Source: Phycisphaerales bacterium AB-hyl4 (GTDB lineage: Bacteria > Planctomycetota > Phycisphaerae > Phycisphaerales > Phycisphaeraceae). Taken from it: a DNA stretch of 64,000 nucleotides. A model generated the notes under the pieces. It did not search any database. It worked only from the letters and a program-made list of their open reading frames with translations, and was not told the origin of the DNA. Each line of letters opens with the position of its first letter. Position 1 is the stretch's first letter. The translations under genes were made by a program, and so were the position numbers. Location of the stretch: the NCBI GenBank assembly GCA_041821185.1, contig JBGUBD010000005.1, positions 365,507 through 429,506 of the forward strand, given 5' to 3'. Positions 23,922 through 57,922 of this stretch are shown here, in pieces.

Positions 23922-25472
23922 ATGACCACCCCCGCCCCTGTCGGAAGGTCCGCCCCCGGCCGCAGCGCCGCATCGGACGATCGTCGGCCGACCGGTTCGA
24001 CGCGCACACTCATAAGGCTTGCCATTATCGCGATGGCGCTGCTGCTGCTGGTCGTCGGCGTCAGCCGGGCCGAGGCGGGCTATCGCGACCTGATGGGCTT
24101 CCCCGAACTCGAAGCCCTGCTGGGTAGTAACGTGCCCACCGGATTCGGCATCGGCGTGACGCACGTGGAAAGTGCGCCCAGCACCGGCCACAACGAGTTC
24201 AACGGCAAATTCTTCGTGAATGTCTCCGAAGCCAGCACCAGTACGCATGCCACCCGCGTCGGTCGCAACTTCTACGGCAACAACACCTCCATCGCACCGG
24301 GCATCGGCCTGGACGAAGACAACCCCATCCGCCTCTACTCGTTCAGCGATTGGGTTCAGTCCGACTTCCTTCGCCTCGGCCAGAACGCCCTCCCCCTGCA
24401 GACCAACAGCCGGGTCGCCAATCACAGCTATATTGCCGCCACCGACTTCGACAGCGAACTGCTCCGTCGATTCGATTACGTCGTCGAGCGGGATGATTAC
24501 ATCCAGGTCGCCGGGGTGAACAACGGCAGTACAAGCAGCAATCAGCCGCTCTGGTCAAGTGCCTACAACGTCATCAGTGTCGGTGTGACCAACGGCAACC
24601 ACGCCACTGGCACCGCGGGCGTCGACAGCACCTATACCGCCGGCCGGGTTGCGCCCACGCTTGTCACGCCCGGCTATCGCCACGACGACAATGAGATCGC
24701 CACCAGTTGGGCCACGCCCATGGTCTCCGCCGCCGTGGCGCTGCTGCTGGAAACCGGGCAGGATGCGTCGCTGTCCAACAACAACACGATCACGAACCGC
24801 ACGCGCGAAATCAACCACGCTGAAACGAGCGAAATTATCCGGGCCGTGCTCATGGCCGGTGCGGATCGGTATGTCATCAACCCGCGCGGCGACAGCCTGA
24901 CCGACTACACCGCCGATACCACCAACAACCTCGACAGCCGATACGGCGCGGGGCAGATGAACATTTACAACAGCTACCGCATCCTCGCCGGCGGCGAGCA
25001 GGACGCAGGCAGCACCATCACCACGCACGGCTGGGACTACAACCCGGCGTTCGGCGGCGATAACGGCACGGCGAGCGAGGCGTCGTACTTCTTCACGCCA
25101 GGCTCGGCGAGCGAAACCGAACTGCTCGCGTCGCTGGTGTGGAACCTCGACGTCAACATCACGCCCGGCATCGGGCCGTTTCCGGCGACGTTCAGCGAAG
25201 TCCTGCACAACCTCGACCTGTTTCTCTACGACGTGACCCTCGGCGAAGTCCTGCTGGACAGCTCCGAAAGCACCATCCACAACAGCGAGCACATCTGGTT
25301 CGACGGCCTCTTGGTCGGCCGAGACTACGAGCTGCGTGTGGTGGCGAACGGGACGTTCGAGTGGGATTACGGCCTCGCGTGGCAGATCATCCCCGAGCCG
25401 GGCACGGGTGCGTTGCTGTTGACCGTGACGCTGCTGGCGTTTCGCCGATCGCGTCGGCCGCGGGCGGCGTGA
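23922..25472 (+). CDS. S8 subtilisin-like protease with PEP-CTERM anchor
   Basis: A 516-residue exported protein. A long basic N-terminus precedes the hydrophobic segment LIRLAIIAMALLLLVVGVS (about residues 29-48). The catalytic Ser is in ATSWATPMVSAAVALLLETG, equivalent to GTSMATP. A candidate catalytic His is in STHATRVG, and the oxyanion Asn in GVNNGS. The expected Asp motif near the start of the mature chain is not canonical (GIGVTHVES). The end is a sorting signal: IPEPGTGALLLTVTLLAFRR, that is PEP, a hydrophobic helix and an Arg cluster, processed by an exosortase. It is probably a surface protein. GGAGGAG lies 11 nt upstream of the chosen ATG. Confidence 0.8.
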   Translation: MTTPAPVGRSAPGRSAASDDRRPTGSTRTLIRLAIIAMALLLLVVGVSRAEAGYRDLMGFPELEALLGSNVPTGFGIGVTHVESAPSTGHNEFNGKFFVNVSEASTSTHATRVGRNFYGNNTSIAPGIGLDEDNPIRLYSFSDWVQSDFLRLGQNALPLQTNSRVANHSYIAATDFDSELLRRFDYVVERDDYIQVAGVNNGSTSSNQPLWSSAYNVISVGVTNGNHATGTAGVDSTYTAGRVAPTLVTPGYRHDDNEIATSWATPMVSAAVALLLETGQDASLSNNNTITNRTREINHAETSEIIRAVLMAGADRYVINPRGDSLTDYTADTTNNLDSRYGAGQMNIYNSYRILAGGEQDAGSTITTHGWDYNPAFGGDNGTASEASYFFTPGSASETELLASLVWNLDVNITPGIGPFPATFSEVLHNLDLFLYDVTLGEVLLDSSESTIHNSEHIWFDGLLVGRDYELRVVANGTFEWDYGLAWQIIPEPGTGALLLTVTLLAFRRSRRPRAA

Positions 25473-25479
25473 GCGGGCG

Positions 25480-25507
25480 TTGACATCATCCGGGCAAGGG
25501 ATATGCT
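25480..25507 (+). promoter_or_regulatory. Predicted promoter of the thrS leader
   Basis: TTGACA (25480-25485) and TATGCT (25502-25507) are 16 bp apart. Transcription would begin near 25514, only a few bases before the Thr-rich leader ORF. Confidence 0.6.
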
Positions 25508-25514
25508 TCGAATC

Positions 25515-25589
25515 ATGCGTTGCAGGATGACGACCACGATCACGACGACTACCACCGCTGGGCAGGTCTGCCCGAGCGTCCGTCGCTGA
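25515..25589 (+). CDS. Threonine-rich leader peptide upstream of thrS
   Basis: A 24-codon ORF: MRCRM, then TTTITTTTT, then AGQVCPSVRR and TGA. Eight of nine consecutive codons (25530-25556: ACG ACC ACG ATC ACG ACG ACT ACC ACC) are Thr, with one Ile. This closely resembles the E. coli thr operon leader ThrL, which has alternating Thr and Ile codons. Translation could also start at the second ATG (25527). Just after the Thr run, GGGCA-GGTC-TGCCC (25560-25573) can form a pause hairpin, and a terminator hairpin follows at 25620. Expected mechanism: when charged tRNA-Thr is scarce, the ribosome stalls on the Thr codons, the terminator fails to form, and thrS is transcribed. Confidence 0.75.
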   Translation: MRCRMTTTITTTTTAGQVCPSVRR

Positions 25590-25619
25590 TCGTGCCCCGA
25601 GATTTGAGGCAAGCGAACG

Positions 25620-25650
25620 ACGGCCGTCCGGGTGGACGGCCGTTATTTAT
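25620..25650 (+). terminator. Attenuator terminator before thrS
   Basis: A perfect 10-bp stem ACGGCCGTCC (25620-25629) and GGACGGCCGT (25634-25643) with loop GGGT is followed by TATTTATT. CCGTCG at 25580-25585, within the leader ORF end, can instead pair with CGACGG at 25618-25623 and so disrupt the lower stem, giving a possible antiterminator. The position between leader ORF and thrS fits attenuation. Confidence 0.7.
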
Positions 25651-25762
25651 TGCGCGTGCTTTTGCGGGTGTGTCGGCGTGGGGTCGGCTTGCATGTGCGG
25701 GCGTGGGGGGCAGCGTGGAATCGAAGCTGATATAAACGATGGTTTGCGATGGAGAACATGCT

Positions 25763-27889
25763 ATGAAGATCACTCTGCCCGACGGCAGCGAAAAGCAGTA
25801 TGACGGGCCGGTGTCGGCTCGCGAGGTGGCGGCGGAGATCGGGGCCGGGCTTGCGAAGGCGGCCATCGGCGCGAAGGTTGACGGTGTGCTGGTGGACGCG
25901 GATCGGCCGATCGCCGAGGACGCGAAGCTGGAGATCGTCACCGCGCCGCGGCAGGACAAGAAAGGCCGAAGCAAGTTCCGCGATGAACAGCATGAGAAGG
26001 ATGCGCTCTACCTGCTGCGCCACTCGACGGCGCATGTGATGGCGGAGGCGATCCAGCGGATCTGGCCGGAGGCGATGCTGGCGTACGGGCCGCCGTTGGA
26101 TACCGGGTTTTACTATGACATTGCGCTGGCGACGCCCATCTCGGCGAGCGACTTTGAGAAGATCGAAGCCGAGATGCAGAAGATCGTCGCGGAAGATCGG
26201 CCGTTCACGCGGTACGAGCTGGCGACGGATGTGGGGATGAAAAAGCTCGACGCGGAGGGGAACAAGTACAAGCTCGACAACGCGCAGCGGGCGATCGAAG
26301 GCGGCGCCGCGGCGCTGTCGTGGTATGTGACGGGTGAGGTTGCTGGGGTAACGCCCAGGGATGGCCATCCCTGGGCTTTGCAGGATGTGTTGCAACAGGG
26401 GGTGTGGGAAGACCTCTGCCAGGGGCCGCATGTGCCGGCGACGGGGTTGATCGGCGCGTTCAAGGTGACGAGCATCGCGCAATCGCATTGGCATGGCGAT
26501 GTGACCAGCGACAAGTTTCAGCGCGTGTACGGCACGGCCTTCTTCAGCGCGGCAGACCTTGACGCACACATGGAACAGCTCGAACAAGCCAGGCAGCGCG
26601 ACCATCGCGTGCTCGGCCAACGACTGGGGCTGTTCACCATCGATGAAATGGTCGGGCAGGGGCTGATCCTCTGGAAGCCCAAGGGCGCGGTGGTGCGCGA
26701 CGAGCTTCAGAAGTTCATCAGCGAGCACCTGCGTCGGCAAGGCTACAGCCAGGTGTTTACGCCACACATCGGCAAGCTGGACCTCTTTAAGACGAGCGGG
26801 CATTTTCCGTATTACCAGGACAGCCAGTATCCGCCGATGATTCACCACGAGCATTTGAAGCATCTCGCAGACGAGGGGTGCACCTGTGCGCAGTTGTCCG
26901 CGTCGATGCGAGAGGGTGATATCGAAGGCTACCTGCTCAAGCCGATGAACTGCCCGTTTCACATCAAGATTTTCGACAGCGAAAAGCGCAGCTACCGCGA
27001 TCTGCCGATTCGGCTGGCGGAGTTCGGCACGGTGTATCGCTGGGAGCAGTCGGGCGAGATCGGCGGCATGACCCGCGTGCGAGGGTTCACGCAGGATGAT
27101 GCTCACCTGTTCGTCACCGAAGACCAGCTCGACGACGAGGTGGCGGGCTGCCTGGAGTTGGTGAAGATCGTGTTCGCGACGCTGGGCATGGACGACTATC
27201 GCGTGCGGGTCGGGCTGCGCGATCCGGACGGCACGAAATATGTCGGTGAGCCATCGCAGTGGGACAAGGCGGAGGCGGCGTGCAAGCGGGCGGCGGCGGG
27301 ATTGGGTGTGCCGTTTGTCGCCGAGCCGGGCGAGGCGGCTTTTTATGGGCCGAAGATCGACTTCGTGGTGCGCGACGTGATCGGGCGGGAGTGGCAGTTG
27401 GGGACGGTGCAGGTGGATTACCAGCTGCCGCAGCGGTTTGATCTGTCGTATGTGGGTGCGGACAACAAGTCGCATCGGCCGGTGATGATCCATCGTGCGC
27501 CGTTCGGGTCGATGGAGCGGTTTGTGGGTGTGTTGATCGAGCACTTCAACGGGGCGTTTCCGACGTGGCTTTCGCCGGAGCAGGTGCGTGTGCTACCGAT
27601 CAGCGACAAGTTTGTCGACTACGCGCAGCAGGTGGCGGACGAGCTGAAGGCCGCGGGCGTGCGCGTGTCGATGGACGACGGCAACGATCGGCTGAACGCG
27701 AAGATCAAGGTCGCGCAGGACGCGAAAGTGCCCTACATGCTCGTCGTCGGCGGGAAAGACCAGGATGCGGGCACGGTGAGCGTCCGGCATCGCAGCGAAG
27801 GCGACCTCGGCGCGATGCCGCGCGAGGCATTCGTGACGCGGATCGGCGCGGAGATCGCAGAACGGTCGGCGACGGTGGCGGCGGTGTGA
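25763..27889 (+). CDS. thrS: Threonyl-tRNA synthetase
   Basis: A 708-residue class II synthetase. Order: TGS domain (ITLPDGSEKQYDG), editing domain with HSTAHVMAEAI (H-x3-H) and DTGFYYDI, then the catalytic core with MNCPFHI (zinc Cys), motif 2 EFGTVYRWEQSGEIGGMTRVRGF, motif 3 region, and a C-terminal anticodon-binding domain (YMLVVGGKDQDAGTVSVRHR). Start at 25763 is set by GGAG 8 nt upstream. Two insertions stand out: a palindrome-encoded stretch in the editing region (VTPRDGHPWALQD) and a segment before MNCPF containing DEGCTCAQLSASMREGDIEG. Probably controlled by the Thr leader upstream. Confidence 0.97.
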   Translation: MKITLPDGSEKQYDGPVSAREVAAEIGAGLAKAAIGAKVDGVLVDADRPIAEDAKLEIVTAPRQDKKGRSKFRDEQHEKDALYLLRHSTAHVMAEAIQRIWPEAMLAYGPPLDTGFYYDIALATPISASDFEKIEAEMQKIVAEDRPFTRYELATDVGMKKLDAEGNKYKLDNAQRAIEGGAAALSWYVTGEVAGVTPRDGHPWALQDVLQQGVWEDLCQGPHVPATGLIGAFKVTSIAQSHWHGDVTSDKFQRVYGTAFFSAADLDAHMEQLEQARQRDHRVLGQRLGLFTIDEMVGQGLILWKPKGAVVRDELQKFISEHLRRQGYSQVFTPHIGKLDLFKTSGHFPYYQDSQYPPMIHHEHLKHLADEGCTCAQLSASMREGDIEGYLLKPMNCPFHIKIFDSEKRSYRDLPIRLAEFGTVYRWEQSGEIGGMTRVRGFTQDDAHLFVTEDQLDDEVAGCLELVKIVFATLGMDDYRVRVGLRDPDGTKYVGEPSQWDKAEAACKRAAAGLGVPFVAEPGEAAFYGPKIDFVVRDVIGREWQLGTVQVDYQLPQRFDLSYVGADNKSHRPVMIHRAPFGSMERFVGVLIEHFNGAFPTWLSPEQVRVLPISDKFVDYAQQVADELKAAGVRVSMDDGNDRLNAKIKVAQDAKVPYMLVVGGKDQDAGTVSVRHRSEGDLGAMPREAFVTRIGAEIAERSATVAAV
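26353..26376. repeat. Palindrome inserted in frame in thrS
   Basis: GCCCAGGGATGG and its exact reverse complement form a 24-nt perfect palindrome inside the editing-domain coding sequence (codons about 197-205). Compared with the intergenic palindrome at 9482-9505 (GCCCACGGATGG...), the differences are compensating, one in each arm. It encodes part of VTPRDGHPWAL, a stretch absent from the ThrS editing domains I know. Confidence 0.75.
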
Positions 27890-28102: not shown

Positions 28103-28765
28103 ATGACGACCCACCACTCAGAACCTGAAAATGCCGAGCCTTCGCTGTTGGGTGAAATTCATGGCGGGGCGAACGGTTCACTGGAGACCCTGACGGATCA
28201 GGAGCTTATGCGCCGGGTCAGTCAGGCGGATGAGGCAGCGCTCGAGGCATTGTTTGACCGCTATAATCGGACGGTTTACGCGATTTGCCTGCGTGTGTTG
28301 CGGAACCCGAGCGATGCGGAGGAGACGTTGGTCGACGTATTTTGGGAGTTGTGGGCCCAATCAGCTCGATTTAACGCCCGCCGGGGCTCGGTGTCGACGT
28401 ATCTGATGATGCTGGCGCGTAGCCGGGCGATTGATCATCACCGCTCGCGAGCGGCTCGTTCGCGTGCGGGAAATTCGACGAGCCCGCTGGATGTGGACGA
28501 TCGAGGCGACGACGGGAAGGCCGACCCTGCGGAGCGTGTTTGGATCACAGAGCGTCGACAACAGGTTCGCACGGCGCTAGGGTCGCTTTCGCCGGATCAG
28601 CGTGAGGCGGTGGTATTGTCGTTTTTCAACGGGATGAGCCATCAGCAGATTGCGGAGGAGCTTGATAAGCCGTTAGGCACGATTAAGACCAGAATTCGAT
28701 TGGGCCTCATCCGACTACGCGACGCGCTGCGTAGTACAGGTGGGGGCGAGGAGAGTCACCGATGA
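28103..28765 (+). CDS. ECF-family RNA polymerase sigma factor
   Basis: A 220-residue sigma-70-family protein with region 2 (LFDRYNRTVYAICLRVLRNPSDAEETLVDVFWELW, then STYLMMLARSRAIDHHRSR) and region 4 (LGSLSPDQREAVVLSFFNGMSHQQIAEELDKPLGTIKTRIRLG) and no region 3, so it is an ECF sigma factor, closest in style to SigK. It recruits RNA polymerase to a small regulon. A charged linker joins the two domains. Its stop overlaps the start of the next gene (ATGA), and that gene encodes a membrane anti-sigma factor, giving a translationally coupled pair. The target promoters are unknown. Confidence 0.92.
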   Translation: MTTHHSEPENAEPSLLGEIHGGANGSLETLTDQELMRRVSQADEAALEALFDRYNRTVYAICLRVLRNPSDAEETLVDVFWELWAQSARFNARRGSVSTYLMMLARSRAIDHHRSRAARSRAGNSTSPLDVDDRGDDGKADPAERVWITERRQQVRTALGSLSPDQREAVVLSFFNGMSHQQIAEELDKPLGTIKTRIRLGLIRLRDALRSTGGGEESHR

Positions 28766-29691
28766 GCTGTAAGGAGCAACATCGTGACCAGATTCTCCTC
28801 TACCTTGCTGGTGCTTTGGACGAGCAGCAGCAGCAGGCGCTGGAGGAACATCTGGACACTAGCTGTCCGGTCTGTGCCGCATACATGGCCGAGGCTGAGG
28901 CGACGTTGGCCAATCTGGCTTTGGCGTTGCCGCCCGACGAGCCGTCTGTCGGTTCGCGTGAGCGGTTGATGGCGCGGGTGCAGCGTGATCGGCAGGACAC
29001 GGCCCGCGCGGCGAAGGCCTCGGCTGCGCCGTCGCCTCGCGATTCGCCGACGATGCCCGAGTCGCGGTCCCGGTCGGAAGATGCGGACGATCAGACGATG
29101 GTGTTCGGTGGGCGGAGGCGGGGCATGATGGCCCGGCTGCTGCCGATGGGCGCGGTCGCGGCGGCGGCGGCGGTGGTGACGGCGATCGTGCTGCTCGGGC
29201 CGTTGACCGCCAATCGCGAGCGCGTCGCCGAGCTGGAGCAGCAGCTTCACGCCGCCGGCGAGACGGTCACGGAGCACGAAAGCAGCATGGCGCAGATGTC
29301 CCGTGCGATGGACGGCACGGCCAACCTGTTCGACTCGCTGTATTCGTCGGCGATGCAGATGGTCTCGTTCCGCAGCGAAGACGAGAGCTACGCCGACGCG
29401 GTGGCCCGGCTGCTGTGGGACGAGGAGCGGAACGTATGTCACTTTTTCGTTCGCAGTCTTCGGCCGCCGAGCGAGGGCAAGGTGTACCACCTCTGGCTGG
29501 TGACGGAGGATGATCGGATGGTCCGGGCCGGGCGGTTTAAGCCGGACGAAGATGGGGGCATGCATATCGAGTTCGAGTTGCCCAACGGCGTGGAGTCGTT
29601 CAGCCGGGCGGCGGTGAGCTACGCGAATGCGGATGCGGACGATGCGGATGATCTGCGAGGCACGCTGGTGATGGAAGGTCTGCTGCGGTAA
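28762..29691 (+). CDS. Membrane anti-sigma factor, RskA type
   Basis: A 309-residue partner of the ECF sigma factor just upstream. The N-terminus has a zinc-anti-sigma-like motif (LEEHLDTSCPVCAAYM, H-x5-C-x2-C variant) that should clamp the sigma factor. A Ser/Arg-rich linker leads to one transmembrane helix (MGAVAAAAAVVTAIVLLGPL, about residues 133-152), a short coiled coil (RERVAELEQQLHAAGE) and a C-terminal RskA-like domain (KVYHLWLVTEDDRMVRAGRF), which should lie outside the inner membrane and sense the signal. ATGA overlap with the sigma gene ensures near equal synthesis. Confidence 0.87.
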   Translation: MSCKEQHRDQILLYLAGALDEQQQQALEEHLDTSCPVCAAYMAEAEATLANLALALPPDEPSVGSRERLMARVQRDRQDTARAAKASAAPSPRDSPTMPESRSRSEDADDQTMVFGGRRRGMMARLLPMGAVAAAAAVVTAIVLLGPLTANRERVAELEQQLHAAGETVTEHESSMAQMSRAMDGTANLFDSLYSSAMQMVSFRSEDESYADAVARLLWDEERNVCHFFVRSLRPPSEGKVYHLWLVTEDDRMVRAGRFKPDEDGGMHIEFELPNGVESFSRAAVSYANADADDADDLRGTLVMEGLLR

Positions 29692-57406: not shown

Positions 57407-57415
57407 TTGTTTTGT

Positions 57416-57916
57416 GGCGTGGACCGTAAGCCGAATTCTGTTCCAACCCGCAAGCCGGGGCTCGCGTGTCGGGACGGCCATTTCTCCAGGCCCGCCGTTG
57501 CCGACGGGCTCAAGCGACCTACCCGCCCCATGGCCCCGGACCGGGGCTGCCCACAGCGTTGACGGGGTCAACAACCGAAGGCGGGGCTGCTTGGTCTTGC
57601 ACGCGGTGGGGTTTACCATGCCCGACCTGTCACCAGGTCAGCGGTGCGCTCTTACCGCACCTTTTCACCCTTACTGGGCTACGCCAGTTTCAAGTCGCCA
57701 AGCGGTCGCAAACAAGGCCCTGTTGCTGCTTCAGCAACTCGGAACTCGAAACCAGAAACTCGAAACTGGCGAAGCCCAGCGGTTTGTTTTCTGTGGCACT
57801 TTCCCTGACGTCGCCGTCGCCAGCGACGCCGGTGGGCGTTACCCACCACCGTGTCCTGTCGTGTTCGGACTTTCCTCGTATGGGTCATGCCCATCCGCGG
57901 CCGTCGCGTCCACGCC
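57416..57916 (-). ncRNA. rnpB: RNase P RNA, type A
   Basis: The catalytic RNA that removes tRNA 5' leaders. On the minus strand the conserved core elements appear in order: ACGAGGAAAGTCCGAACAC near the 5' end, AGGGTGAAAAGGTGCGGTAA and GAGCGCACCG in the middle, and ACAGAATTCGGCTTACGG near the 3' end. The termini GGCGTGGAC and GTCCACGCC form a perfect 9-bp P1 helix, which sets the ends. At about 500 nt it is longer than usual (350-400 nt). Part of the excess is a stem between GGGCTTCGCCAGTTTC and GAAACTGGCGTAGCCC whose interior carries the TTTCTGG-type repeat. A TATACT -10 box lies 7 nt upstream and a strong terminator downstream. Confidence 0.96.
57743..57768. repeat. TTTCTGG-type repeat inside rnpB
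   Basis: ACTCGAAACCAGAAACTCGA on the plus strand, the same unit as at 14176-14240 and 30677-30712. It lies in a peripheral extended stem of RNase P RNA and not in the conserved core. Confidence 0.7.
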
Positions 57917-57922
57917 AACCAC

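Follow-up and report, generated by a model that had tools for sequence, protein, structure and literature searches.

The thrL leader of the Escherichia coli thrABC operon (Rfam RF00506, Thr_leader) combines a run of Thr and Ile codons with a terminator/antiterminator switch; it governs biosynthesis genes and possesses a Shine-Dalgarno (SD) sequence. The E. coli thrS gene itself is controlled at the level of translation, and both the binding of threonyl-tRNA synthetase (ThrRS) to a tRNA-like leader element and the T-box are known ways of controlling thrS. The E. coli synthetase genes pheST are located behind a classical leader-peptide attenuator. The leader peptide of the branched-chain biosynthesis operon ilvBNC of Corynebacterium glutamicum was reportedly described by Morbach in 2000 as being made without a ribosome-binding site, and a 2010 article by Lopatovskaya in Mol Biol is said to deal with the attenuation of synthetase operons. 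Classical leader-peptide attenuators are also described, in the consulted parts of the respective papers, for trpS and leuS of Streptomyces (PMC1262725) and for hisS paralogues of bacilli (PMC2965389). In the case of thrS, the literature searched yielded a leader peptide for Streptomyces lividans TK24 alone, where thrL was proposed to precede thrS on a leaderless transcript (PMC8079986, consulted in part); an earlier prediction for thrS elsewhere is possible, and in PMC2330054, in the excerpt available, thrS is mentioned solely as an example of a split gene, though the leader-peptide term is also present in that paper. The proposal for S. lividans corrects the original prediction for the locus studied here, to which no description of such a peptide for thrS was known, and the leader presented below is thus a better supported representative of an already known kind, from a different phylum. 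As far as the literature was searched, the novelty lies in the phylum, in how strong the signature is and in how well it is conserved.

We propose that thrS of Phycisphaerales bacterium AB-hyl4, which is contained in the 64-kb stretch of DNA that was analysed (hereafter the window), is preceded by a ribosome-mediated transcription attenuator that senses the charging of tRNA-Thr, a reading to which we assign a probability of roughly 0.92. The best named matches are Phycisphaeraceae and Phycisphaera MAGs, in line with an origin of the window in Planctomycetota. The locus is similar to that of E. coli thrL in its Thr and Ile codons and its predicted terminator/antiterminator switch, but differs from it in that the leader would govern thrS and in that no SD was seen. 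The latter feature is shared with the C. glutamicum ilvBNC leader, which belongs to a different type of operon, while a leader rich in the cognate residue in front of a synthetase gene is shared with the pheST, trpS, leuS and hisS attenuators (the last three as described in the consulted parts of their sources), which concern other amino acids and other phyla. S. lividans thrL likewise encodes a leader peptide upstream of thrS on a leaderless transcript; however, according to the consulted part of that paper (PMC8079986), it has two Thr in 18 residues and no clear terminator, and was proposed for one genome of the Actinobacteria, whereas the Phycisphaerales leaders have 6–9 Thr per nine codons and a terminator in 36 genomes. 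The elements of the locus are as follows:

25480..25507, + strand: promoter, with −35 TTGACA at 25480-25485, a 16-nt spacer and −10 TATGCT at 25502-25507 (sequence and scan)
25515, + strand: probable transcription start at the A of the leader AUG, giving a leaderless mRNA (from the 7-nt gap and with no SD seen)
25515..25589, + strand: leader-peptide ORF of 24 codons, MRCRMTTTITTTTTAGQVCPSVRR (translation)
25530..25556, + strand: putative regulatory codons Thr3-Ile-Thr5, that is eight Thr and one Ile per nine codons (sequence and translation)
25535..25547, + strand: region 1, the putative protector, a stretch of Thr codons predicted to pair with 25581-25585 and 25587-25594 (MFE fold)
25556..25578, + strand: small predicted hairpin closing the Thr run, inner stem 25560-25564 / 25569-25573 (MFE fold)
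25570..25585, + strand: region 2, predicted 5' arm of the antiterminator, adjoining the leader stop codon on its 5' side (fold of 25565-25634)
25587-25589, + strand: leader stop codon, 173 nt upstream of thrS
25618..25633, + strand: region 3, predicted 3' arm of the antiterminator, sharing bases with the 5' arm and loop of the terminator (folding; analogous pairing across the set)
25619..25652, + strand: intrinsic terminator with T-rich tail, stem 25619-25629 / 25634-25644 (scan and fold)
25751..25754, + strand: SD of thrS, GGAG (sequence)
25763..27889, + strand: thrS, threonyl-tRNA synthetase, 708 aa, ATG at 25763 (profile search)

Scanning of positions 25300-26000 identified a single sigma-70-like site, namely the listed promoter (shuffled sequences gave a mean of 0.0, sd 0.2), the hexamers of which match 10 of 12 consensus positions, and a single terminator, at 25619-25644 (mean of 0.3 in shuffles). 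The latter has a stem of 11 bp, a 4-nt loop and the tail ATTTATTG, which does not form a strong U-tract. The original prediction had named this promoter, a 24-codon ORF with eight Thr and one Ile within nine positions, a small hairpin directly behind the Thr codons and a GGAG belonging to thrS, and each of these was recovered by the scan, by translation, in the MFE fold and in the sequence, respectively; its perfect 10-bp terminator stem with a T-rich tail was also found, as ten Watson-Crick pairs to which one G-U pair is added. Judging by the predicted fold, the small hairpin is possibly a pause or protector hairpin. The thrS product contains the TGS, SAD, class II core and anticodon-binding domains (Pfam), and no second thrS above the family cut-off was detected elsewhere in the genome. 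Directly after thrS, at 28103-29691, a gene for an ECF-type sigma factor overlaps an ORF downstream, which, as a guess, may encode its anti-sigma factor.

To compare this locus with its relatives, the sequences upstream of thrS were collected from ThrS searches for 110 members of the order (window included), 30 loci from a first search and 80 fetched from a second. The sample consists mainly of the best listed matches and is non-random (243 of the 251 genomes searched gave a ThrS match), and six families contribute 38, 31, 29, 8, 3 and 1 regions. An ORF with at least six Thr in nine codons was scored as a leader. Such an ORF is present in 36 of the 110 regions, including the window, and in every sampled family (14/38, 14/31, 2/29, 3/8, 2/3 and 1/1, in the above order), with a density of 6–9 Thr per nine codons and its end 78–252 nt upstream of the thrS match; examples of the peptides from order members are MRRTTTTTTTVTTTPTPGPSAVRVGP, MLVTTTTTTTTTTTTRPPAIG and MNQNITTTTTTTTTATSPD. 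All 36 leaders are followed by an intrinsic terminator, 24–48 nt 3' of the leader stop and 27–193 nt before the matched thrS start. Among the 109 regions with at least 200 nt (i.e. all except L016, which has 31 nt upstream), terminators were found in 36/36 with a leader versus 3/73 without (Fisher p about 1e-25, relatedness being ignored). Two of the latter three terminator-like hairpins, at L136 and L152, are accompanied by weaker Thr-rich ORFs, and no Thr-rich ORF was found at the third, L164. The original prediction had claimed that thrS is attenuated by a ThrL-like peptide in this lineage, and had named, as the feature to look for in front of thrS in related genomes, a run of Thr codons with a terminator behind it; the outcome was strongly positive, and the comparison supports the claim as far as sequences can. 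The parts of the attenuator, their order, spacing and co-occurrence can be read directly from these regions. Since the Thr run is absent in 74 of the 110 order members (two thirds), the leader is not universal in the order.

The co-occurrence of leader and terminator over the order is, on these sequence counts, far beyond chance. Dinucleotide shuffling of the window upstream region (3000 shuffles) produced no case of eight Thr in nine codons and one case of six, and at least six Thr per nine codons occurred in 4 of 6540 shuffled upstream regions of the order and in none of 109 on the reverse strand. No other site with at least seven Thr per nine codons is present in the 64-kb window, and the Thr-run pattern occurs at three places in the organism's own genome, two of which, apart from the leader, fall within extended open frames (about 510 and 720 codons). 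When runs of other residues were sought (at least six in nine codons, any frame, any ORF), Arg gave 16, Pro 14, Ser 6 and the remainder 0–2 of the 110 regions, compared to 36 for Thr. Outside the order but within the same phylum, 40 thrS regions (of 181 genomes with a match) contained no Thr run of at least six, and no terminator was detected in the 39 regions with at least 180 nt. One locus of this outgroup, L217, has a 5-Thr ORF ending MTTTRTTG about 104 nt before thrS, with no terminator detected. Among 59 thrS loci of Verrucomicrobiota, a Thr run of six was found in none of the 54 with at least 60 nt upstream.

An S8-peptidase-like gene, co-directional with thrS, ends at 25472, 147 nt upstream of the terminator, and the hairpin might therefore serve that gene, the Thr-rich stretch being incidental low complexity. 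This explanation is extremely improbable, as a full promoter is situated between the gene and the terminator, and terminators track the Thr leaders across the order. Furthermore, the neighbour at L034 is divergent (it matches GH141_M), so the terminator at that locus is not that of the upstream gene. Thr codons over the leaders comprise 153 ACC, 110 ACG, 38 ACT and 17 ACA, and adjacent codons are identical in 85 of 228 cases (84 expected); since they are mixed as in random expectation, the Thr run is not a DNA repeat, which argues against an incidental stretch.

The short ORF might alternatively act at translation, through uORF coupling, re-initiation or SD masking, with the terminator being secondary. 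The shortness of the leader, its proximity to thrS and the translational control of E. coli thrS would fit such a role, but 173 nt separate the leader stop from thrS and an intrinsic terminator intervenes in all 36 leaders, and we regard this as highly unlikely. Hardly any weight can be given to autoregulation of the E. coli thrS type, in which ThrRS binds a tRNA-like leader element, or to a T-box that senses tRNA: while both are established controls of thrS, a ThrRS-binding element would not require Thr codons, and neither a T-box nor any other riboswitch or Rfam family was found at gathering score in the window leader or in the 35 other leader-bearing loci. The E. coli model RF00506 scored 17.2 bits in the window (gathering 55; E 0.72 in a 331-nt search) and had no gathering matches in the other 35 loci. 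The 36 leaders are thus probably unannotated; of the 74 order members that lack the Thr run, 20 were compared with Rfam, which identified only a tRNA.

The mRNA from which the leader peptide favoured here is translated is probably leaderless, a point absent from the original prediction. In the window, 7 nt separate the −10 hexamer from the AUG, which is therefore the probable 5' end of the transcript, and no SD was seen before the leader ORF. In 20 of the 36 leaders, including the window, a −10-like hexamer (at least 4/6 matches, with A2 and T6) ends 5–10 nt ahead of an in-frame start, against a mean of 2.3 and a maximum of 6 in 50 shuffles, a comparison that mildly favours the observed side, for which more than one in-frame start was admitted as opposed to a single one for each shuffle. 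Start sites mapped in S. lividans are located 4–9 nt 3' of the −10 box (PMC8079986), and for Planctomycetes a single genome has prompted the suggestion of leaderless or S1-assisted initiation (PMC5397173), both according to the parts of these papers that were consulted. We cautiously favour a leaderless peptide attenuator that is restricted to Phycisphaerales among the genomes compared, and whose sensor would be transcribed and translated from the same first nucleotide.

Folding predicts two mutually exclusive structures of the leader RNA. In the MFE fold of the unoccupied leader, the Thr codons of region 1 are paired with 25581-25585 and 25587-25594. The 6-nt antiterminator proposed in the original prediction (25580-25585 with 25618-25623) is recovered by folding, but as the core of an interrupted helix of 14 bp in three blocks between 25570-25585 and 25618-25633 (fold of 25565-25634: −30.4 kcal/mol, z −1.82, with 11 of 200 shuffles equally stable); the terminator fold has −23 kcal/mol and z −3.73. 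In this model, the longer helix would break the terminator and exclude 25581-25594 from pairing with the Thr codons, as in a classical switch. With a ribosome stalled, upstream pairing of the terminator 5' arm had a mean probability of 0.81 across the 36 leaders versus 0.61 in shuffles, all 36 exceeding their own shuffle mean and 9/36 doing so at P<0.05, while with a ribosome at the stop codon the mean was 0.34, which is partly trivial since the available stretch is shorter. Relative to the leader stop, the centre of the partner of the arm falls between −27 and +11, and 94% of this partner (lowest 0.56) lies beneath a ribosome at the stop. Additionally, the energy of the region 2:3 duplex was better than shuffles at p<0.05 in 15/36 and had a negative z in 35/36, and when the own terminator arm was combined with region 2 of other genomes, the own pair ranked in the better half in 26/36; as the genomes are related, none of these counts represent independent trials. 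For the window alone, the duplex did not surpass its shuffled counterparts (z −0.6, p 0.27; swap rank 20/36), the pairing probability of the terminator arm gave P 0.21, the fold of 25576-25634 had z +0.31, and a fraction of 0.50 of the terminator arm was predicted to stay paired elsewhere when a ribosome occupies the stop.

According to the mechanism that we propose, transcription would start at or beside the leader AUG, with a ribosome trailing RNA polymerase. When Thr-tRNA is plentiful, the ribosome would traverse the Thr codons, reach the stop codon and cover region 2, allowing the terminator to form and switching thrS off. Conversely, when Thr-tRNA is scarce, the ribosome would stall on the Thr codons and keep region 1 off region 2; the freed region 2 would capture the 5' arm of the terminator, and the polymerase would continue into thrS. 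An increase in ThrRS would then restore tRNA charging, closing the loop.

In a ThrS tree of 30 genomes, in which L016 was scored as being without leader on account of its 31 nt upstream, leader presence requires 8 changes, four of which are forced by well supported branches, as compared to 8.6 for shuffled labels. The leader thus appears to have been gained or lost repeatedly, gain and loss being indistinguishable, and this scattered presence, together with its absence from 74 of 110 regions, suggests that the device is dispensable. Compartmentalisation in Planctomycetota has been debated. If the leaderless reading that we cautiously favour is correct, it would represent, within the limits of the literature searched, the first attenuator of the ribosome-mediated type in Planctomycetota, extending leader-peptide attenuation to that phylum with a strong comparative signature, and would constitute genomic evidence for tight transcription-translation coupling in the lineage, in a device that was gained or lost repeatedly, with the Thr run as the main constraint on its peptide. 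Such coupling would become testable in Planctomycetota, and the leader offers a candidate readout of Thr-tRNA charging.

A rough scan of other genes (25 genomes per gene, with some weak matches or loci shortened by contig ends) revealed no convincing leader with terminator before hom (22 loci), pheS (25), thrC (25), ilvB (21/25) or trpE (25), so that, of the genes tested, thrS alone seems to carry the device. In the window, a trpE-like gene (TIGR00564; 12078-13550, − strand; G000:C5:377584-379056) has no Trp leader with terminator upstream. Upstream of thrC, a SAM-I riboswitch (RF00162) was identified in all nine loci scanned of the 25, i.e. L290 (own genome, G000:C5:84592-85569, − strand), L284–L289, L294 and L295, and in 7/9 the aptamer is followed by a terminator. 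A SAM riboswitch is also listed before a threonine biosynthesis operon of S. lividans in the consulted part of PMC8079986. The sole Rfam gathering match in the window is a bacterial RNase P RNA of class A (57411-57917, − strand; 279 bits).
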